From assembly GCA_026416375.1 (NCBI GenBank), contig JAOAFI010000060.1, positions 1-44,775 of the forward strand: a stretch of DNA of 44,775 nt, read 5' to 3'. Positions 24,199 to 36,668 of the stretch are shown here, in pieces. The stretch comes from Patescibacteria group bacterium (GTDB lineage Bacteria; Patescibacteriota; Microgenomatia; UBA1406; GWC2-37-13). The notes below the pieces were generated by a model that was not told the DNA's origin, searched no databases, and worked only from the letters and a program-made list of their open reading frames with translations. Every line of letters begins with the position of its first letter. Within the stretch, counting starts at the first letter, position 1. The translations under genes were made by a program, and so were the position numbers.

Positions 24199-25569
24199 AT
24201 GTATAAAGAAAGAATTAAAAAATTAAATTCTAAAGAAGTAAATTTATCTGGAAAATATGTTTTTTATTGGGTTCAAACTGGTTTAAGAATAGATTATAAC
24301 TATTCACTTGAGTTTGCTATTAATCAAGCTAATAAATTAAAAAAACCACTTGTGGTTTTTTTTGGATTAAAAGAATTTAAATTTTCTAATTTAAGACAAT
24401 ATCAATTTTTAAAAGAAGGAATTTTAGAATATAAAAAAAATTTAGAAAAAATAGGTTCTAATTTTTTAATAAAAAGAATAAAAAATTTTGATGAAATATT
24501 AGATTTTGCAAATGATGCTTGTTTAATTATTTCTGATTTTGGTTATTTAAAAAAACAAAGATTTTGGCGTTATTATTTATCATCAAAAGCAAATGTTTCT
24601 TTTTTTGAAGTTGAAAACGATACTGTTTTTCCATTAAAAATTATTTCTTCAAAAAAAATAAGTTTTGCTTTTCAAATAAGAAAAAAAATTTTTAATGCTC
24701 TTCCCTACTTTGTTAGAATTTTTAATCTTCCTGAAATTAAAAATAAAGAAAAAATCTTTTTTCAATCAAAAAAAGAAATAGAAGAATTATTTGATCAATT
24801 AAAAATTGATAAAAAAGTATATCCTTCTTTTTTTATTGGCGGAGAGCTTGAGGCAGAGAAAAAATTAAAAGAATTTATTGAGAGTAAGTTAAGTTATTAT
24901 AAAAATTATAGAGGCAATCCATCAAAAAATTTTCAATCTGATTTGTCAGCTTATCTTCATTTTGGTTTTATTTCACCTGTTAAAATTATCAATCAAATTT
25001 TAAAAAAATATCCAATAAGAGATGAAAATGTTATTTCTTTTTTTAATGAGCTTTTAATTTGGAGAGAGTTAGCTCGTAATTTTGTTTATTTTGAAGAAAA
25101 TTATGATAATTGGAAAAATTTACCGCAATGGTCGATTAATACTTTAGATTATCATCAAAAAGATAAAAGAGAGTATGTTTATTCTCTTGAAGATTTAGAA
25201 AATGCAAAAACTCACGATAAATATTGGAATGCTTGTCAAAAAGAGATGCTTATTGCTGGCAAAATGCATAATTATATGAGAATGTATTGGGCAAAAAAAG
25301 TGATTGAATGGACTAAGGATTGGCGTCAGGCTTATGATTGGTTAGTTTATCTTAATGATAAATATGAACTTGATGGTCGAGATCCAAATGGTTATGCTGG
25401 AATTGCTTGGAGTTTTGGCCAATTTGATCATCCTTGGAATGAAAGAAAGATATTTGGAAAGGTAAGATATATGAATGATAAAGGTTTAGAAAGAAAATTT
25501 GAAATGAAGGATTATTTGAAAAAAATAGAAAATCTAGAAAAAAATTCAAAAAATAAACTTGAAAGATAA
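24199..25569 (+). CDS. phrB: Class II CPD photolyase
   Basis: 456 residues. The N-terminal Rossmann domain has YVFYWVQTGLRIDYNYSLEF; the C-terminal FAD domain has SDLSAYLHFGFISP, ELLIWRELARNFVYF, GKMHNYMRMYWAKKVIEWT and DGRDPNGYAGIAWSFG, then FGKVRYMN. These are hallmarks of class II photolyases, which use light and FADH- to reverse cyclobutane pyrimidine dimers. It faces the carotenoid operon and overlaps the lycopene cyclase gene tail to tail by 58 bp. Pairing with carotenoid genes fits a light-exposed life. Confidence 0.92.
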   Translation: MYKERIKKLNSKEVNLSGKYVFYWVQTGLRIDYNYSLEFAINQANKLKKPLVVFFGLKEFKFSNLRQYQFLKEGILEYKKNLEKIGSNFLIKRIKNFDEILDFANDACLIISDFGYLKKQRFWRYYLSSKANVSFFEVENDTVFPLKIISSKKISFAFQIRKKIFNALPYFVRIFNLPEIKNKEKIFFQSKKEIEELFDQLKIDKKVYPSFFIGGELEAEKKLKEFIESKLSYYKNYRGNPSKNFQSDLSAYLHFGFISPVKIINQILKKYPIRDENVISFFNELLIWRELARNFVYFEENYDNWKNLPQWSINTLDYHQKDKREYVYSLEDLENAKTHDKYWNACQKEMLIAGKMHNYMRMYWAKKVIEWTKDWRQAYDWLVYLNDKYELDGRDPNGYAGIAWSFGQFDHPWNERKIFGKVRYMNDKGLERKFEMKDYLKKIENLEKNSKNKLER

Positions 25570-26198
25570 ATAAAATTAAATCCATATAAAAAATCCTCAA
25601 TAGGAATAGTTAATATTTTTATATTAGTTAAATATTTTTTATTGTAGATAACAACAGGTCTTTTAGTTAGATAATAATTAAAAATAAAAGTTAAAAGGAA
25701 AATAAAAATTGAAAATATTAAAAAATTAAATTTTAAAATTAAATTTATTTTTAAAATTAATAAATCAACAATTATTAATAAAATAAATAAATAATTAATA
25801 AATTTTAAGTATGGTTTTGAATTTTTTAAATATAAAAATAAAAAAGAAATAAAAATTAATCCAAAAAAAATTAAATTTAAAATAAATAAACTTTCTTTTT
25901 CAAAAATAATTTTTTTTAAATTAATCCATATTATCATTGTTGAAAAAGAAACAATTGGAAAAAAAATAATTTCTTCAATTGGAAGATTAAATATTTTTAT
26001 ATCAGTAATATATTTTTTATTAAAACTCCACCAAGAATTATTTACTTTTATATCATGAATTATAAAAATTATTGAACTTAAAATATTTGATAAAAAAAAA
26101 TAAATATTTAAATTAGAAAGAGTTTTTTCATAAAAAAAATTTGCTATTAAAGGTGATAATAAAATTATTAAATTAAAAATTAAATATTCAAGTTTCAT
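25512..26198 (-). CDS. Lycopene cyclase, fused CrtYc-CrtYd type
   Basis: 228 residues with six to seven hydrophobic helices and two copies of the heterodimeric-type cyclase domain. Each ends in the same signature: NKKYITDIKIFNLPIEEIIFF (first half) and KKYLTNIKILTIPIEDFLYGF (second half), carrying the P-[IV]-E-[ED] core. The family cyclises lycopene ends to beta-rings. I start at ATG 26198, 4 nt after the preceding stop; an in-frame TTG at 26219 is less likely. It is last in the crt operon. The last 19 codons lie inside the photolyase gene on the other strand. Confidence 0.85.
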   Translation of the reverse strand: MKLEYLIFNLIILLSPLIANFFYEKTLSNLNIYFFLSNILSSIIFIIHDIKVNNSWWSFNKKYITDIKIFNLPIEEIIFFPIVSFSTMIIWINLKKIIFEKESLFILNLIFFGLIFISFLFLYLKNSKPYLKFINYLFILLIIVDLLILKINLILKFNFLIFSIFIFLLTFIFNYYLTKRPVVIYNKKYLTNIKILTIPIEDFLYGFNFIYLSSLFFEFFSRFSIFFK

Positions 26199-26202
26199 TT
26201 TT

Positions 26203-27252
26203 TTATTTTTTTCTTTCAATTAAATATTTTATAATTTCAAGAATAAATTGATTGAATTTTTTTGGAAATTTTTCTTTTAATAAAATTTTTTCAACCTCTA
26301 TTTTTAGTTGATCAATTTTTTCTTCAATTATTCTTTTTGTTTTTGAATTAAGATAAAAAAATCTTATTCTATTTATTTCTTCAGATTTGACATTTTTTTT
26401 ACCAAAGATTTTTTTAAAATCGTTTTTTATTTCTTTTTTTAAATAAAAATAAATTATTGTTTTTTTGTTTTCTTTTATATCAGAGCCTATTGTTTTTCCT
26501 GTTTCATCAGATAAAAATCCAATTAAATCATCTGTTATTTGAAATATAAGTCCTAAATTTTCCAAAATTTTTATTAAATTTTTATTTTTATAATTTTTAT
26601 TTTTTATTAAAATAAGAGTTGAAATTATTGGTAAAACAAAAGTATATCTTGATGTTTTATAAAGATATATTTTTTTAATTTCTTCCTCTTTTGGTTCGTA
26701 GTTTGTTGAACTATAAACAACATCATCAGTTTGAGCTAAAGCGACTTTTATATATTCTTTTGTTAAAAAATAAATTAAATAATTTTTAGTTTTTTTATCA
26801 ATATTTAATTTACTTAAAAAATAAAAACTTATAAAAAAACCAATATCTCCAATATTGATAGCCAAGTTATTGCCTAAGTTTTTTGATTCTTGTGAAATTT
26901 TTTGATATTTTTCTTGATAATAAAAATTTATTGTTTTCTCTCCCCTTCTTAAAGTGTCATCATCCATAATATCATCATGAATTAAAAGAGTTGAATGAAT
27001 TAACTCAAAAAAAGAAGCAAGATAATAAAAATTTTTTCTATTAATTTTTTTACCTTTAAATAAATTATTAGTTAAAAAAACCAAAGATCCTCTTATTCCC
27101 TTTCCTCTTAAAATAAAATTTTTATAATTTTCAAAAAGTTCATTTTTTTCAAAAGAATAATCTAAAAAATCTGAATTAAATATATTAATTTCTTTTTCTA
27201 TAAATTTAAAAATTTTGTTTTTGTATTTATTAATTTTTTCTATTAAAACCAT
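26203..27252 (-). CDS. crtE: Geranylgeranyl diphosphate synthase-like prenyltransferase
   Basis: 349-residue trans-isoprenyl diphosphate synthase. The first Asp-rich motif DDIMDDD with TLRRG follows ELIHSTLLIH, and the second is DDLIGFLSD; both bind Mg2+ and the diphosphates of the allylic substrate and IPP. Positions four and five before the first Asp motif are Leu and Thr, not aromatic, which favours C20 or longer products over FPP. With crtB next door, GGPP is the expected product. It overlaps crtB by 23 bp. Confidence 0.88.
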   Translation of the reverse strand: MVLIEKINKYKNKIFKFIEKEINIFNSDFLDYSFEKNELFENYKNFILRGKGIRGSLVFLTNNLFKGKKINRKNFYYLASFFELIHSTLLIHDDIMDDDTLRRGEKTINFYYQEKYQKISQESKNLGNNLAINIGDIGFFISFYFLSKLNIDKKTKNYLIYFLTKEYIKVALAQTDDVVYSSTNYEPKEEEIKKIYLYKTSRYTFVLPIISTLILIKNKNYKNKNLIKILENLGLIFQITDDLIGFLSDETGKTIGSDIKENKKTIIYFYLKKEIKNDFKKIFGKKNVKSEEINRIRFFYLNSKTKRIIEEKIDQLKIEVEKILLKEKFPKKFNQFILEIIKYLIERKK

Positions 27253-28072
27253 ATATTATTAAAAAATTATTAATAATTGTTTTTAATATTTGAAATTTTG
27301 TTATTTTTAATTTTTCTTTATGAAAAATAAGTTTTGGATTTTTAACTATTTTTTTAGCAATATCTTGATATAAAGAAATAGCTATTTTTATTGGAAAAAG
27401 AATATTTTTTTTAAAAAATTTATATGATTTTTTTGCTTTTTTTTCAAGCAAAAAAGATTTTTTGATTAAATAATAGATTATTTGATTTAATTTATTTTCA
27501 TTTTCTTTTTTTAAAAAATTTTTATGATTAAGATTATATTTTTTTAATAATTCTTCAGGAAGATAAAATTTTTTAATTTTGTAGTCTTCATAAATATCCC
27601 TGACGTTATTTATTATTTGAAGAGAAATACCAACATTTTTAGCATCTTTATAAGTATTTTTTGGAAGTTTTAATAATTTTGCCATTATTATTCCAATTGT
27701 TCCAGCTACTCCATAAGCAAATTGGTTAAAATCCTTTATTTTTTTATACTTTTTTATAATTAATTCTTTTTCTTGAGTTTTTAAATAATCGTATATTTCT
27801 TTTTTAATTTTGTTTTCTTTAATTAATTTACCAATATCATTAATTATTTTTATCTTTGATCTTTTATTTTTTTCTATTAAATTTTTTAATTCTTGTTTGT
27901 ATAAATAAAAATTTTTTTTGTCTGGATTTTTTTTATCAACAAAGTCGTCAATAATTCTTACAAATGAATAAAGAAGAAAAACTTTTTCTTTTATTTTTTT
28001 TGGAAAAAAAACTGTTGAATAATAGAAGGTTTTAGTATTTTTTTTAGTTATTTTTTGATAATTTCTCATCAT
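27230..28072 (-). CDS. crtB: Phytoene synthase
   Basis: 280-residue squalene/phytoene synthase. It has YSFVRIIDDFVD (first Asp-rich motif) and the second motif INNVRDIYEDYK followed by KFYLPEE, as in bacterial CrtB. It condenses two GGPP to phytoene via prephytoene diphosphate. Two adjacent ATG codons mark the start. It overlaps crtI upstream by 29 bp and the prenyltransferase gene downstream by 23 bp, so translation is probably coupled. Confidence 0.9.
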   Translation of the reverse strand: MMRNYQKITKKNTKTFYYSTVFFPKKIKEKVFLLYSFVRIIDDFVDKKNPDKKNFYLYKQELKNLIEKNKRSKIKIINDIGKLIKENKIKKEIYDYLKTQEKELIIKKYKKIKDFNQFAYGVAGTIGIIMAKLLKLPKNTYKDAKNVGISLQIINNVRDIYEDYKIKKFYLPEELLKKYNLNHKNFLKKENENKLNQIIYYLIKKSFLLEKKAKKSYKFFKKNILFPIKIAISLYQDIAKKIVKNPKLIFHKEKLKITKFQILKTIINNFLIIYGFNRKN

Positions 28073-29537
28073 AATCTTTTATCAAATTAAAAACAATTTG
28101 AGATGAAATTAAGACTGGAGGCATTCCAACTCCAGGATTAGTGTGATGACCAACATAAAAAAGATTTTTTATTTTTGAAGAAAAATTTTTAGGTCTAAAT
28201 ATAGCTGTTTGAAAAAAAGTATGAGCGATTCCAAAAGCTGAACCTAAAGTTGAATTATAATCTTTTAAAAAATCTTTTGCTTGAAAAATTTTTTTGATGA
28301 CAATTTTTTTTTCAATATTTTCAATATTATTTAATTGAGCAAATTTTTTGACGATTTTTTTATAAAATTTTTCTACATTTTTTTTATTTAAAAAAAGTCC
28401 GGGAGGCATCGGCACTAAAATCATCACGCTATGATGATTTTTTGGAGCTAAAGAATAATCTGTTTTTGAAGGAATATGCCAGTAAAAAGATGGATTTTTT
28501 GGAATTGATTTTTTATTATAAACATTTTTAAAATGATTTTCCCAGTTGTCTGTAAAAAAAAGATTATGATGTTGGCTTTTTATTAAATTATCTTTTATTC
28601 CAAAATAAATCAAAAAAGCAGATGGTGAAAAAATCTTTTTTTGCCAATATTTTTTATTATATGTTTGATATTTTTTTGGAATTATTTTTGTTTCAAAAAA
28701 CGGATAGTCAGCATTTACAACAAAAAAATCTGCATCATAATTGTTTTTATTAGTAATAATTTCTTTTATTTTATTTTTTTCAATTTTTAATTTAATTACT
28801 TCCTCATTAGTTTTAATTATTACTTTATTTTCTAAACATATTTTTTTTAAAGCTTCAATAACTTTATATATTCCTCCTTTCGGATAATAAATGCCTAAAT
28901 TAAAATCTGCATGGGCTACTAATTGATAAAAAGCTGGAGTATTGTATGGAGATCCTCCAAGAAAAACAGTAGTATATTCTAAAATTTTTTGTAATTTTTT
29001 ATTTTTAATGATTTTTTTTATATAATCATGAAGAGATTGAAATAAATTAAATCTTAAAAGATTAAAAATTATTGATGGTTTTAAGAGTGTTGTTATTTTT
29101 TTATAGTCTTGATAAACTAATTCTTTCATTGCCTGTTTATATATAAATTCTGATTTTTTTAAAATTTTTTCTAATTTTTTATCTCCATTTTTTTCTAACT
29201 GTTTAAATATTTTTTTGTTTTTTTCAATGTTTGAATCAATATCAATAACATTATTATCCTCAAAGAAAACTCTATAATGATTTTTAAGTTTTATAAGATG
29301 ATAAAAATCAGAAGTTTTTTTATTAAATAATGAAAAATAATTATCAAAGACCTCAGGCATCATATACCAAGATGGACCCATATCAAAATAAAAATTTTTT
29401 AATTTTAAAAATCTGGCTCTACCGCCAATAATTTTATTTTTTTCAATTAAGATTGTTTTGTAACCATTTTTTGCTAAAAGAGAGGATGTTGCCAATCCTC
29501 CAATTCCTCCGCCAATAACAATAGCAGTTTTTTTCAT
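28044..29537 (-). CDS. crtI: Phytoene desaturase (CrtI type)
   Basis: 497 residues. The FAD-binding VIGGGIGGLATSSLLAK begins near residue 8, with GGRA at the end of the Rossmann fold, FYFDMGPSWYMMP, YPKGGIYKVIEALKKI and the C-terminal signature FYVGHHTNPGVGMPPVLISS. This is normal CrtI length. The family desaturates phytoene, usually in four steps to lycopene, which suits a lycopene cyclase downstream. It overlaps the isomerase-like gene by 4 bp (ATGA). Confidence 0.92.
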   Translation of the reverse strand: MKKTAIVIGGGIGGLATSSLLAKNGYKTILIEKNKIIGGRARFLKLKNFYFDMGPSWYMMPEVFDNYFSLFNKKTSDFYHLIKLKNHYRVFFEDNNVIDIDSNIEKNKKIFKQLEKNGDKKLEKILKKSEFIYKQAMKELVYQDYKKITTLLKPSIIFNLLRFNLFQSLHDYIKKIIKNKKLQKILEYTTVFLGGSPYNTPAFYQLVAHADFNLGIYYPKGGIYKVIEALKKICLENKVIIKTNEEVIKLKIEKNKIKEIITNKNNYDADFFVVNADYPFFETKIIPKKYQTYNKKYWQKKIFSPSAFLIYFGIKDNLIKSQHHNLFFTDNWENHFKNVYNKKSIPKNPSFYWHIPSKTDYSLAPKNHHSVMILVPMPPGLFLNKKNVEKFYKKIVKKFAQLNNIENIEKKIVIKKIFQAKDFLKDYNSTLGSAFGIAHTFFQTAIFRPKNFSSKIKNLFYVGHHTNPGVGMPPVLISSQIVFNLIKDYDEKLSKNN

Positions 29538-30079
29538 AAAGAAAGATATTTTTTAATTTTATATAAAGGAATTTTTTTTATCCAAGGAGCAAAGTTAAAA
29601 TTTTTAAATTTTTTATAAAGAATATTAAAATCCATAAAATCCATGCCATAACTATATTCTTCTTTATTTTTTATTTTGCCTTCAATTTCTATTAAATATA
29701 AATAGTTAATTTCATTTTCTATAAAACCTGATTTTTCATCTTTCTCTTTGTAATAATATTTATCTAAGAATTTTAATTTTTTTATTTTTCCTTTAAAAGT
29801 CCATTCTCTTTTGAAATTTTCAATAATTGCTTTCTCTATTTTTTGAAGTTTTTTATTTTTTAGCATTTGAGGATGAGAAGAAAAAGAAAGATCAAAAACA
29901 TTATCAAAAACTTTATGTTTTCTTTTTTGAATAACATAAAAATTATTTATTTTTATAATACAAGTAAAACCTCGATGAAGAATTCCTTCTTTATGAGCCT
30001 GCCAGCGATCAATAGATTTGATAATTTTATCTTTTTTATTAACTTGAAGAATGTTAATGTTTTTTTGATAATAGTTCAT
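29534..30079 (-). CDS. Isopentenyl-diphosphate isomerase-like Nudix protein, catalytic Cys missing
   Basis: 181 residues resembling type I IPP isomerase: HKEGILHRGF (His29, His35), IQKRKHKVFDNVFDLSFSSHPQ and IENEIN (Glu121, Glu123). Type I enzymes carry a catalytic Cys in C-x-H-P (Cys67 in E. coli); here the motif is Ser67-Ser-His69-Pro. Metal-binding His and Glu residues appear kept, though the His-His spacing is one residue shorter than in E. coli. As first gene of the operon it should balance IPP and DMAPP, but chemistry may be weak or different. A related Nudix hydrolase role is the alternative. Confidence 0.7.
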   Translation of the reverse strand: MNYYQKNINILQVNKKDKIIKSIDRWQAHKEGILHRGFTCIIKINNFYVIQKRKHKVFDNVFDLSFSSHPQMLKNKKLQKIEKAIIENFKREWTFKGKIKKLKFLDKYYYKEKDEKSGFIENEINYLYLIEIEGKIKNKEEYSYGMDFMDFNILYKKFKNFNFAPWIKKIPLYKIKKYLSL

Positions 30080-31148: not shown

Positions 31149-31302
31149 AAAAGCTTGATTTTAGTCACTTCCTGATTTAATTTGGGAAGGAAGACTGTCC
31201 CGACTTAGTCGGGATTTTAGGGAACACCGGTGAAAATCCGGGGCTGTGCCGCAGCGGTAATCCCGACTGAGTTGGGAAAGCCCGAAGACCGATCAAGCTT
31301 TT
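31149..31302 (+). promoter_or_regulatory. Cobalamin riboswitch
   Basis: The closing helix P1 is exact: AAAAGCTTGAT (31149-31159) with ATCAAGCTTTT (31292-31302). The conserved core runs AGGGAACACC, GGTGAAAATCC (31229-31239), CTGTGCCGCAGCGGTAA (31244-31260) and AAGCCCGAAGACC (31278-31290), the order and spacing of the B12-binding aptamer. Two peripheral hairpins carry nearly the same sequence (31198-31214 and 31261-31277). A short CGCC/GGCG hairpin (31304-31315) and an AGGGA ribosome site (31326-31330) follow, suggesting control of translation start at 31338. GC content is far above the surroundings. Confidence 0.9.
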
Positions 31303-31337
31303 GCGCCTCTTGGCGGACCCCGAGCAGGGATATTTTT

Positions 31338-32363
31338 ATGAGTCTTTCTGTATCAGAGTCTTTAGCAAAATTTGGTTTTAATCCTCAAGAAAAAGTTAAT
31401 TCTGAGACTGATTTTAAAAACCAGCTTGAGTCTTATATTCTTCATGTTTTTGAGGATAAGCCTGTTTCAAATAGATATTCTTATTTTTTAAAAAATGGCA
31501 AAATTTTTACTGAAGGCAATCAAGAGTTTTTTATTGATCCTGAGGAGAGAGGCGGATATTCTTTAAAAGGAACTCTAGAGGCAATTAGTTTAAGTTTAGA
31601 TAATCCAGGAAAATTAATCTTTTTATATAGTCCTCCAGGACCAGTGACTTTTACTGCAGGAACAAAATATGACAAATTAGCTCCATATCCTTCAGGTCAG
31701 TTATATATAATGACTTCAGATGAATTTTCCAATAGAATTGATGCGATTGCCATATCGGTATCAAGAGAGGTTGAAGATAAAGTTTTAGGACTTTTAAGAT
31801 TAAGGCATAATAGTGGATTTGATGATGAGAAACAAAAAATAATTTATTATTTGACTCATCCTCAATTATTTTATGGAAATATTGACAATTTAATAAATGA
31901 CTTAGGAATTTTTTTATCAAAAAATGAAGATTTTTTAGTTTATAAGAATGTTAGAGGTGAGCGTTTTAACTTGTCCCATATTATTTCTTTTTTAATTAGT
32001 GGCTGGAGAAAAGAATTAAAATCTGAAGAACCAATAGATTATGATGAATTATATAAAAAAGCATTAACTGATCCAAAATTAGCTTATTTAGGAATTCTTT
32101 ATGCTCGTTCCGGCGGATCATCAGTTCCTCTTGGAGGAAGCTGTGGCGGAAGCGAAACTAATCCAAGTGAGATTGAAGAAATTCTTCACGGTTTTAATCT
32201 TTTATCTACTTCTTGGCGAATTAGTGATATTCTTAAAAGTCAAGATTCAGATAAATATGGTTCTTTAGAATTCGAATGTCCTCATTGTCGAAAAAAAGTC
32301 AAAAGACCAAAAAATACTTTAATAGAAAAATGTCCTCATTGTGAAGGAAATGTAAGATGTTAA
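31338..32363 (+). CDS. Unrecognised zinc-ribbon protein under B12 riboswitch control
   Basis: 341 residues from ATG 31338, the first start after the riboswitch; an earlier ATG (31230) lies inside the aptamer core and is not a start. Soluble, with no signal or membrane helix. The middle has LYSPPGPVTFTAGTKYDKL; later comes a Gly/Ser loop SGGSSVPLGGSCGGS. The C-terminus is a zinc ribbon with two CPHC knuckles (about 314-336). I do not recognise the family and it is none of the usual B12-switched genes (transporters, NrdJ, MetE). Its stop overlaps the convergent Pus10 gene by 4 bp. Confidence 0.75.
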   Translation: MSLSVSESLAKFGFNPQEKVNSETDFKNQLESYILHVFEDKPVSNRYSYFLKNGKIFTEGNQEFFIDPEERGGYSLKGTLEAISLSLDNPGKLIFLYSPPGPVTFTAGTKYDKLAPYPSGQLYIMTSDEFSNRIDAIAISVSREVEDKVLGLLRLRHNSGFDDEKQKIIYYLTHPQLFYGNIDNLINDLGIFLSKNEDFLVYKNVRGERFNLSHIISFLISGWRKELKSEEPIDYDELYKKALTDPKLAYLGILYARSGGSSVPLGGSCGGSETNPSEIEEILHGFNLLSTSWRISDILKSQDSDKYGSLEFECPHCRKKVKRPKNTLIEKCPHCEGNVRC

Positions 32364-33298
32364 TTTTTATTATTAAAATCTATTTTTATAACTTTTAATT
32401 TTTTAACAAAGCATTTTTGATTTAAAAAATAAGAAAATGATGGTTTTGTTCGGTCTTCATCACCGTTTATTAGTTCTTTAATATATGTGCCTGATTCTGA
32501 TTCAATTTTTAAAATTGGATTTTTAGGATGATATGAGATTAATTCAATATAATAAATCTTTTTTTTTCTTTTAAGATTAGCTCTTCTTTTTAAGACTCTT
32601 GTTGGTGTTTTTTGGATTATTGTTAAATTAGAAAATTTTTTACAAATTTTTTCTAAAACTGATTTTAAAACTGGTTTTTCCAGCTGAATTTCAGTTTCAT
32701 ATGTTTTTTTTGGGGAAGCTAATTTTATTTGTCTAATTTTATTTTTCTCGCAAAAATTAAGATTAGCAACTTTAACATATTTTGAATTATGATTTATTTT
32801 TTCCTCAATTTTTTTAAGATTAATTTGACGTTTTTTTGGATTTTTAATTTCAATGACAAATGGTCTGCCTTTTCCTATTGTTATCACATCAATATCTTCT
32901 CTTCCGCATCCATGAAAAGAATGATCCTCTCCTCTGCTTTCTTTTAAAACAATTTCTCCAATTTCTTCTTGAACTGATGTTTGATATCTTTTTTTATGCC
33001 AACGGGTTTGAGGAATGCCGGGAAGAATTTTTTGATAATATCCAAAAATATATAGAGGTTTTATATTAAAGTTAATCTCATTTTTTTCAAAGTTAATCTC
33101 AATTAAAATATCAGGATTTTTAAAATCAGCTGTTTTTTTTAATTTTTTCTCAATTTTTTTTCCTAAAAATATTTTAATCTCTTTTTTTTCTTTTTCATCA
33201 ATTTTATCTTTTATTCCAAGAAGAAATGTTTTGAATTGATATTTTTTTAATTGACTGGATATTTTTTTAAAAATATTATTGATTTGTTTTTTTATCAT
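32360..33298 (-). CDS. pus10: Pus10-like tRNA pseudouridine synthase (archaeal/eukaryotic type)
   Basis: 312 residues from ATG 33298; a longer start at 33343 would run into the tRNA gene and is rejected. Diagnostic Pus10 blocks are YYQKILPGIPQTRW (about 87-100), SFHGCGREDIDVITIGKGRP (127-146, with the expected catalytic Asp in GREDID) and ESGTYIKELINGDEDRTKPS near the end. Pus10 makes pseudouridine 54 and/or 55 in the tRNA T-loop and is classically archaeal and eukaryotic. The N-terminal THUMP-like part is short and lacks the Cys-pair zinc site of archaeal forms. It follows tRNA-Leu by 6 nt on the same strand. Confidence 0.88.
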   Translation of the reverse strand: MIKKQINNIFKKISSQLKKYQFKTFLLGIKDKIDEKEKKEIKIFLGKKIEKKLKKTADFKNPDILIEINFEKNEINFNIKPLYIFGYYQKILPGIPQTRWHKKRYQTSVQEEIGEIVLKESRGEDHSFHGCGREDIDVITIGKGRPFVIEIKNPKKRQINLKKIEEKINHNSKYVKVANLNFCEKNKIRQIKLASPKKTYETEIQLEKPVLKSVLEKICKKFSNLTIIQKTPTRVLKRRANLKRKKKIYYIELISYHPKNPILKIESESGTYIKELINGDEDRTKPSFSYFLNQKCFVKKLKVIKIDFNNKN

Positions 33299-33304
33299 TT
33301 TTTG

Positions 33305-33386
33305 TGCCGCAGAGAGGAGTTGAACCTCTACGGGTTGCCCCACACGGTCCTAAGCCGTGCCTGTCTGCCAATTCCAGCACTGCGGC
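33305..33386 (-). tRNA. tRNA-Leu (UAG anticodon)
   Basis: 82 nt class II tRNA. Acceptor arms GCCGCAG (33386-33380) and CTGCGGC (33312-33306), discriminator A. Anticodon stem CACGG/CCGTG around loop CTTAGGA gives anticodon TAG. Variable arm GGG CAA CCC; T-arm AGAGG TTCAACT CCTCT. CCA is not encoded. The Pus10 gene starts 6 nt downstream and is probably cotranscribed. Confidence 0.96.
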
Positions 33387-34009: not shown

Positions 34010-34660
34010 TTATTTATTTTTTAGAAATAATTTTATTGATTTAAATCCAAAAATAAATCCGCCAATATGAGCAAACCAAGCTATACCTCCATGATTAATG
34101 TCAAAAGTAACTAATGAACCAAAACTAGAAAATAATTGAATAAAAAACCAATATCCTAAAAAAAACCAAGCAGGAATTATAATAATTTGAAAAAAACCAA
34201 ATATTGGAAGAAGAGTTTCAATTTTTGAATTTTTAAATAAAACAAAATAAGCTCCAGCTACTCCTGAAATTGCCCCTGAAGCTCCAATCATTGGTATTTC
34301 ACTTTGATAATTAAAGATAAATTGTGAAAATATAGAAAATATACCACTTAAAATATAAAAAATAATATATTTAAAATGTCCTAATTTATCTTCAACATTA
34401 TCTCCAAAAATATGAAGAAACCAAAGATTTGAAATAATGTGAAATAAACTTCCGTGAATAAACATTGAATAAATTATATATTTATAGCTTTCTAAATTTA
34501 AAAAATTAAATTTTGAAGGTATAAATCCATATTTAAATATAAATTCTTCAAAATTATATGAATTTAATTGAATAAAAAAGATAAAAATATTTATAAAAAT
34601 TATTAAATAATTTGCAAATGGAATTTTTTTTGATTTATTAATATCTCTTAAAGGAAGCAT
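34010..34660 (-). CDS. Rhomboid family intramembrane serine protease
   Basis: 216 residues with six helices. The catalytic GASGAISGVAG contains Ser129. The oxyanion-side HIISNLWFLHIFGDNVED is at about 74-91, and the catalytic His is in WFAHIGGFIFG near residue 198. Rhomboids cleave substrates within the membrane. The substrate here is unknown. A TATAAT lies 6 nt before the ATG. Confidence 0.9.
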   Translation of the reverse strand: MLPLRDINKSKKIPFANYLIIFINIFIFFIQLNSYNFEEFIFKYGFIPSKFNFLNLESYKYIIYSMFIHGSLFHIISNLWFLHIFGDNVEDKLGHFKYIIFYILSGIFSIFSQFIFNYQSEIPMIGASGAISGVAGAYFVLFKNSKIETLLPIFGFFQIIIIPAWFFLGYWFFIQLFSSFGSLVTFDINHGGIAWFAHIGGFIFGFKSIKLFLKNK

Positions 34661-34723: not shown

Positions 34724-34810
34724 GGAGAGGTGCGAGAGTGGTTGATTCGGCACGCCTGGAGAGCGTGTATGGCCGAAAGGTCATCGCGGGTTCGAATCCC
34801 GCCCTCTCCG
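34724..34810 (+). tRNA. tRNA-Ser (GGA anticodon)
   Basis: 87 nt class II tRNA. Acceptor arms GGAGAGG (34724-34730) and CCTCTCC (34803-34809), discriminator G. Anticodon stem CACGC/GCGTG around CTGGAGA gives GGA. A long variable arm (TGGCCGAAAGGTCA) and T-arm GCGGG TTCGAAT CCCGC follow. CCA is not encoded. A TATAAT at 34689-34694 may be its promoter. Confidence 0.96.
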
Positions 34811-34855
34811 CAAATAATAAAATGATAAAAATATTTTTATATATATTTTTAATAT

Positions 34856-35732: not shown

Positions 35733-36668
35733 ATGGAGATAAAAGAAGCGGTTTTAAGATTTTTAGAATACTGCGAACTTGATAAAAATCTTTCTTTGCG
35801 AACTGTTAGAATGTATAGTTATTATCTTAATTTTTTTCAAGATTGGCTTTTTAAAAAATATCAAAAAGAGTTAAAGGTTGAAGAAATAAATGAGGAAGCA
35901 ATTAGAAGTTTTCGTCTTTTTATTTCCCATCAATATAAAAATCCTTATAAAGGCGAACTTAAACGCCAGACTCAAAATTATTTTTTGGTAGCTTTGCGAA
36001 GTTTTTTTAGATTTTTATTAAAAAAAGGTTATAAGGTTTTATCTCCTGAAATGATTGAGCTTGGAAAAACAAGAGATAGAAATATAAAATTTTTGCTTCC
36101 TGAAGAACTAGAGCGATTATTTAATGCTGTTGATATTAAAGATGAAATTGGTTTAAGAGATAGAACAATTCTTGAGGTTTTATTTTCAACAGGTCTTCGC
36201 GTTTCAGAGTTAGTTTCTTTAAATCGCGAACAAATTAATCTTGAAAAAGGAGAATTTGGAGTGATTGGAAAAGGAGGCAAAGCAAGAGTGGTTTTTCTTT
36301 CAAAAAGAGCTATTGTTTGGCTAAAAAAATATTTAGAAAAAAGAAATGATCCTTACTCTCCCCTATTTATTCGTTATTCGGGTCCAAAAGCAAAAGAAGG
36401 ATTAACTAATGAAAAAATGAGATTATCTGTCCGATCAGTTGAACGAATGATTGATAAATATAGAAAAAAAGCTGGTATTTTATTTAGAATTGGACCTCAT
36501 GTTTTGCGACATTCTTATGCAACAGATTTATTGTCGCATGGCGCTGATTTGCGAAGTGTCCAGGAAATGCTTGGACATAAAAATATTTCTACTACTCAAA
36601 TTTATACTCATGTTACCAACATCAGACTTAAAGAAATTCATGAAAAGTTTCACTCAGGAAATAAATGA
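35733..36668 (+). CDS. XerC/XerD-type tyrosine recombinase
   Basis: 311 residues. An N-terminal SAM-like core-binding domain (about 5-90) is followed by the catalytic domain. The active-site set is complete: Arg in STGLRVSEL, Lys in VIGKGGKARVVF, His-x-x-Arg in HVLRHSYAT, His in LGHKNISTTQIYTHV with the nucleophilic Tyr. Length and motifs fit chromosomal XerC/D, which resolve dimers at dif, rather than a phage integrase. No dif or att site is recognised nearby. Its end overlaps the DUF2079 start by 4 bp (ATGA). Confidence 0.88.
   Translation: MEIKEAVLRFLEYCELDKNLSLRTVRMYSYYLNFFQDWLFKKYQKELKVEEINEEAIRSFRLFISHQYKNPYKGELKRQTQNYFLVALRSFFRFLLKKGYKVLSPEMIELGKTRDRNIKFLLPEELERLFNAVDIKDEIGLRDRTILEVLFSTGLRVSELVSLNREQINLEKGEFGVIGKGGKARVVFLSKRAIVWLKKYLEKRNDPYSPLFIRYSGPKAKEGLTNEKMRLSVRSVERMIDKYRKKAGILFRIGPHVLRHSYATDLLSHGADLRSVQEMLGHKNISTTQIYTHVTNIRLKEIHEKFHSGNK

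Follow-up and report, generated by a model that had tools for sequence, protein, structure and literature searches.

A minimal archaeal-type Pus10 in Patescibacteria that probably stands in for TruB

We report a gene for the tRNA pseudouridine synthase Pus10 in the genome of a bacterium of the Patescibacteria, on the 44,775-nucleotide stretch of DNA analysed here (hereafter the window). The encoded protein genuinely belongs to a known enzyme family, of which it is an unexpected and most likely laterally acquired member. We consider it likely that this is a genuine bacterial Pus10, acquired laterally from an archaeon-related source, which stands in for TruB in a Patescibacteria family that is mostly without that enzyme. 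Reviews from 2021 and 2023 report no Pus10 in bacteria (PMC7912444, PMC9957541), and our literature search returned no paper linking Pus10 to Patescibacteria or CPR; some of the genes described here may already have been named Pus10 by automatic annotation. The region of interest (32360-33386) comprises Pus10 and tRNA-Leu, and lies among the following features.

24199..30079, photolyase, lycopene cyclase, GGPP synthase, CrtB, CrtI and IDI (tblastn synteny; Pfam for photolyase, lycopene cyclase and CrtI)
31230..32363, plus strand, 377-aa protein with two C-terminal CPHC zinc-ribbon-like motifs and no Pfam match (open reading frames, synteny)
32360..33298, minus strand, Pus10, 312 aa (TIGR01213, PF21238, PF22023, AlphaFold2 model, alignment-backed start)
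33304..33386, minus strand, tRNA-Leu(TAG), no encoded CCA (ARAGORN)
34010..34660, minus strand, rhomboid protease (PF01694)
34724..34811, plus strand, tRNA-Ser(GGA), the other border of the variable stretch (ARAGORN)
35733..36668, plus strand, XerC-like tyrosine recombinase (synteny in G410, G411, G390, G430 and G388)

Identification of the Pus10 gene and protein

The Pus10 open reading frame runs on the minus strand from an ATG at 33298 to a stop at 32360-32362, and its start codon agrees with an alignment to four orthologues. A preliminary description of this DNA had named the protein Pus10 from the blocks GIPQTRW, FHGCGREDID and GTYIKELINGDEDRTKPS and had called it compact; the blocks are present in the translation, the length is indeed 312 residues, and the identity is borne out by profile and fold comparisons. 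The protein passes the family model TIGR01213 (tRNA pseudouridine(54/55) synthase Pus10; 300.9 bits, 1.3e-89, cut-off 200), matches PF21238 (Pus10_C) across all 232 model positions (1e-65), and scores just above the cut-off of 28 for PF22023, the archaeal Pus10 THUMP (31.4 bits, 2e-7), with a layout of an N-terminal THUMP-like domain (approximately residues 1-80) followed by a catalytic domain (approximately 82-308). Its top PDB sequence match is human PUS10 (2v9k, 6e-34). An AlphaFold2 model with five family members as input (pLDDT 85.9) aligns with 2v9k over 308 of 312 residues in structure comparison (Z 24.2, rmsd 3.0), Foldseek matches it to the solved Pus10 fold at 3.2e-25, and its residues 1-85 resemble THUMP structures (Z 8.6-9.1); Cbf5 and TruB structures reach Z <=14.

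Membership of another pseudouridine synthase family, which the preliminary description had allowed for, was checked by HMM search, and the TruB and Cbf5 models fall far under their cut-offs: TruB_N scores only 10.5 bits (E-value 0.83, cut-off 27.3), TIGR00431 is absent among the NCBIfam matches, and Cbf5 models give 40 bits versus 242 and 24.5 versus 238. In the alignment of the five bacterial copies, the catalytic R-E-D motif (G132-R133-E134-D135) and its surroundings are unchanged throughout. We take the first Asp of GREDxDV, a motif of the wider superfamily, to be the nucleophile, and the predicted catalytic residue of the window protein is Asp135.

Residency of Pus10 in bacterial genomes

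The genome to which the window belongs, as contig 32, spans 764 kb and is 93% complete with 0.62% contamination. Pus10 was found in 5 of the 83 genomes of its order, namely the window's genome, G410 and G411, which share a genus, and G390 and G434, which represent other genera of the same family, so that the gene spans three genera of that family. Carriers account for 3 of the 20 genomes of the window's genus; the four further orthologues in the family are 56-63% identical, and the carrier genomes are 85-93% complete. The Pus10 gene of the closest relative (Patescibacteria isolate SKYG101) lies on a 304-kb contig with the same gene order as the window, and since the gene sequences of SKYG101 and G410 are identical, they were counted as one genome. 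A phylum sample of 380 genomes yielded one intact and one broken copy, and a class sample of 373 genomes yielded three intact copies and no additional family with an intact gene; weak matches in G186 and G841 are probably due to chance.

The GC content of the five copies (0.22, 0.41, 0.30, 0.29 and 0.25) follows that of the corresponding host regions (0.23, 0.38, 0.31, 0.26 and 0.28). Differences between the window and G411 copies at codon positions 1, 2 and 3 amount to 0.29, 0.16 and 0.38, conservation being stronger at the first two positions than at the third. Because gene GC tracks host GC over a range from 22% to 41%, synteny is bacterial and several genomes carry the gene, we regard Pus10 as resident in these bacteria. 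An assembly or binning artefact, with an archaeal contig placed in a bacterial bin, would accord with a literature that describes Pus10 as archaeal and eukaryotic only, but we give it almost no credence: five genomes show bacterial synteny and host-like composition, one copy sits on the 304-kb contig with its bacterial gene order, and the window's own bin is only 0.62% contaminated. Synteny, composition and recurrence across five genomes exclude archaeal contamination for the set, the remaining exception being the G434 copy, which is found on a 3-kb contig in a bin with 4% contamination. The bacterial nature of the contig is upheld on the same grounds, and the archaeal or chimeric contig considered in the preliminary description is not supported.

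Absence of TruB and TrmA

Whether TruB is missing from this organism had been raised as a question, and for the window's genome the answer is that it is. A TIGR00431 search found no TruB match there, with 14 of 14 control genomes positive, and a looser profile, built from TruB proteins of the window's own order, gave no match at E<=1 in any of the five Pus10 carriers, in which neither TruB nor Cbf5 was detected; as a control, the same profile recovered TruB in G028 (7e-64) and Cbf5 in two archaeal genomes. TruB might hide in an assembly gap of one carrier, which is unlikely for all five. A search with PF05958 (TrmA family) likewise found no match in any of the five.

This absence is not peculiar to Pus10 carriers. 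TruB is missing from 65 of the 83 genomes of the order and present in 18; it is present in 245 of the 380 genomes of the phylum sample, and its loss is also documented in some Mollicutes (PMC4014445). No genome of the order (0/83) has TruB and Pus10 both intact. Since most relatives without Pus10 also have no TruB, no anticorrelation between the two genes can be demonstrated within the order (Fisher p = 0.58). Most of the 65 TruB-less genomes are also without Pus10 and form a large group lacking a known synthase for pseudouridine 55 (psi55); this clade may be able to do without psi55. As a separate observation, several relatives encode a second TruB-like protein (L026-L031, L034-L036) with a large insertion and with GYAGRLDPMA replacing GHAGTLDPLA, which accompanies a canonical TruB in G413, G438 and G440.

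A variable island bordered by tRNA genes

Pus10 lies within a variable stretch bounded by tRNA-Leu(TAG) and tRNA-Ser(GGA), beside the XerC-like gene, whose position next to tRNA-Leu is conserved in the family. Between these tRNAs, G390 has rhomboid and Pus10 only, G411 has both of these plus the carotenoid/photolyase block, and G430 has rhomboid and IDI without Pus10; the window contains the same genes as its relatives in rearranged order. The most constant neighbour is the rhomboid gene, present in all family genomes with Pus10 and in 0 of 17 congeners without it, so that among the 20 congeners only the three Pus10 carriers possess it. The gene for the 377-aa CPHC protein is convergent with Pus10 (stop overlap 4 bases), also adjoins Pus10 in G410, and was detected near rhomboid in G430. 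The carotenoid/photolyase block recurs alongside Pus10 in G411 and, with a broken Pus10, in G028; its presence at 24199-30079 of the window places carotenoid genes together with a photolyase in a Patescibacteria genome.

G028 is a single-contig genome from a different family with an intact TruB. Its block (L041:9175-15089) contains tRNA-Leu, IDI, CrtI, CrtB, GGPP synthase, lycopene cyclase, photolyase and Pus10, and is 92% identical at the nucleotide level to the G434 island over 2.6 kb. The photolyase frame is open, and Pus10 is interrupted by nine gap positions, most of them in homopolymers, and by stop-creating substitutions; the homopolymer gaps could be sequencing errors, an explanation that does not apply to the substitutions. 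We also observed that the IDI, GGPP synthase and CrtB matches are fragmentary and stand beside a poorly paired tRNA-Leu(TAG) copy. The shared, 92% identical block indicates that the island moved between families, and its state in G028 suggests a tRNA-associated transfer followed by decay. Pus10 is thus decayed where TruB was kept, the G434 side of this comparison being the 3-kb contig noted above.

Origin of the bacterial copies

The preliminary description had proposed either lateral transfer or an ancient bacterial lineage of the enzyme, to be separated by phylogeny. Of 60 Thermoplasmatota genomes, 57 have a Pus10 that scores above the family cut-off, as do 16 of 60 Micrarchaeota genomes, and our tree comprised the five bacterial sequences with 30 from Thermoplasmatota and 15 from Micrarchaeota. 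In this sampling of two archaeal phyla, the bacterial copies form a single clade (support 100/100) outside both. A Micrarchaeota source near L090/L010 was rejected (union with the bacterial clade, AU p = 2e-7), and union with the Thermoplasmatota L009 group was not (AU p = 0.17). Intact copies are confined to one family, which fits lateral gain and does not fit an ancient bacterial lineage; the sparse distribution (1/380 intact in the phylum sample, 3/373 in the class sample) speaks against ancient inheritance, so that only the first of the two proposals stands. Most likely, Pus10 was gained laterally from an archaeon-related source. Searches of phage records, plasmid records and viral contigs found no match to a mobile carrier of Pus10. 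Apart from the question of origin, six Thermoplasmatota genomes (G477, G486, G495, G511, G515 and G519) have Pus10 frames that reach about 590-600 aa, with an insertion within the catalytic domain that divides the family match into two parts.

Linkage to tRNA-Leu

The tRNA-Leu(TAG) gene lies 5 nt upstream of the Pus10 ATG; the preliminary description was right that Pus10 begins just after a tRNA gene, and its spacing of 6 nt is corrected by one. The T-loop of this tRNA retains U54 and U55 (GGTTCAACTCC), and canonical U54U55 occurs in the tRNAs examined. Cotranscription with tRNA-Leu does not hold as a trait of the bacterial gene: the arrangement with tRNA-Leu directly before Pus10 is a local one, shared by the window and its closest relative G410 alone. 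In G390 and G411, tRNA-Leu is elsewhere and Pus10 adjoins rhomboid, and in G434 Pus10 faces photolyase. No terminator-like site was found near tRNA-Leu and Pus10, and a promoter scan gave a value close to the shuffle level (26 versus 21.3 +/- 5.0). By the simplest route, transcription through tRNA-Leu in the window and G410 probably also yields pus10 mRNA, which would be nearly leaderless after 3' processing of the tRNA.

Reduced size and missing cysteine motifs

The window protein shares its profile family (TIGR01213; COG1258), catalytic domain and archaeal-type THUMP with the archaeal Pus10s, including those of M. jannaschii and P. furiosus, and has 41% identity to one Thermoplasmatota protein. 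It differs in its bacterial host, in its length (312 aa, against approximately 390-490 aa for most Thermoplasmatota members) and in the loss of both kinds of cysteine motif. Whereas most archaeal Pus10s have two N-terminal CxxC motifs and an internal zinc-type CxxC..CxxC, the N-terminal motifs are missing from all five bacterial copies, as the preliminary description had claimed for the window protein, and the internal one is missing as well. The N-terminal CxxC is a common rather than defining feature, some Micrarchaeota members above the TIGR01213 cut-off also being without it. Minimal proteins of approximately 330 aa without CxxC in the DPANN archaea L089 and L090, both Micrarchaeota, represent a like trimming in another small-genome lineage, but they are not sisters of the bacterial clade (the rejected union with L090/L010); with CxxC missing from these two proteins too, Pus10 trimming occurred more than once. 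Human PUS10, whose structure 2v9k is the only solved Pus10, also has no internal zinc insertion, and the entire predicted model of the window protein superposes on it; the human enzyme is the longer of the two (2v9k chain, 530 residues), has a more extensive accessory domain at its N terminus and is only about 27% identical. Bacterial TruB has the pseudouridine synthase core fold in common with the window protein (Z approximately 11) and the same presumed target, U55, but belongs to a different family and has no THUMP.

Discussion

The predicted function of the bacterial Pus10 is probably the formation of psi55, a near-universal tRNA mark for which bacteria usually rely on TruB, and its functional replacement of TruB is likely. 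The THUMP-like domain would dock the acceptor end of the tRNA and Asp135 would isomerise U55 of the T-loop, producing psi55 where TruB would otherwise do so; the gene itself would travel in a variable tRNA-Leu/tRNA-Ser island able to move between lineages. We predict mainly psi55 activity because the N-terminal cysteines and thumb loop of M. jannaschii Pus10 are reported to be important for psi54 (PMC9957541), and P. furiosus Pus10 forms psi55 only (PMC7912444); with those cysteines gone, psi54 formation would be weak or absent. It is possible, if rather unlikely, that psi54 and psi55 are both products of this enzyme, or that psi54 is its chief one, and that it thereby replaces the TrmA-type and TruB-type marks together. 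M. jannaschii Pus10 does form both (PMC7912444), and the carriers are without a TrmA-family gene, so that U54 is not obviously taken; however, besides the missing cysteines and the single product of the P. furiosus enzyme, U54 may be methylated by TrmFO. That the protein retains the Pus10 fold but serves as an RNA chaperone or acts on an RNA other than the T-loop seems improbable. Human PUS10 contributes to microRNA processing non-catalytically, and TruB also acts as a chaperone, but all five copies keep the catalytic motif and the residues around it unchanged, and no other psi55 enzyme was found in the carrier genomes.

Since TruB loss is the norm in the order (65/83), a direct swap and a loss followed by a gain both fit the distribution. 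Our tentative reading is that a TruB-less lineage regained psi55 through an archaeal-type Pus10 of minimal size, carried by a mobile island with tRNA borders, its sister lineages being without a known psi55 synthase. We are more doubtful of a direct swap, by which Pus10 was gained in the family ancestor, redundant TruB was lost and most members later lost Pus10. The presence of Pus10 in three genera, a Pus10 tree that broadly matches the trees of neighbouring genes, and the lack of any genome in the order with both enzymes intact would agree with such a swap, but the neighbour-gene trees are poorly supported, TruB is also gone from most genomes in which no trace of Pus10 is seen, and the tRNA-Leu/rhomboid/tRNA-Ser locus is present in G430 but has no Pus10 gene.

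At least four well-supported bacterial genomes, each without TruB, therefore carry Pus10. If it replaces TruB, this would be a natural swap between enzyme families for a highly conserved tRNA mark, and the small bacterial protein offers a chance to find which parts of Pus10 decide between U54 and U55. As many Patescibacteria have no recognisable psi55 enzyme, the universality of psi55 is directly testable in them.
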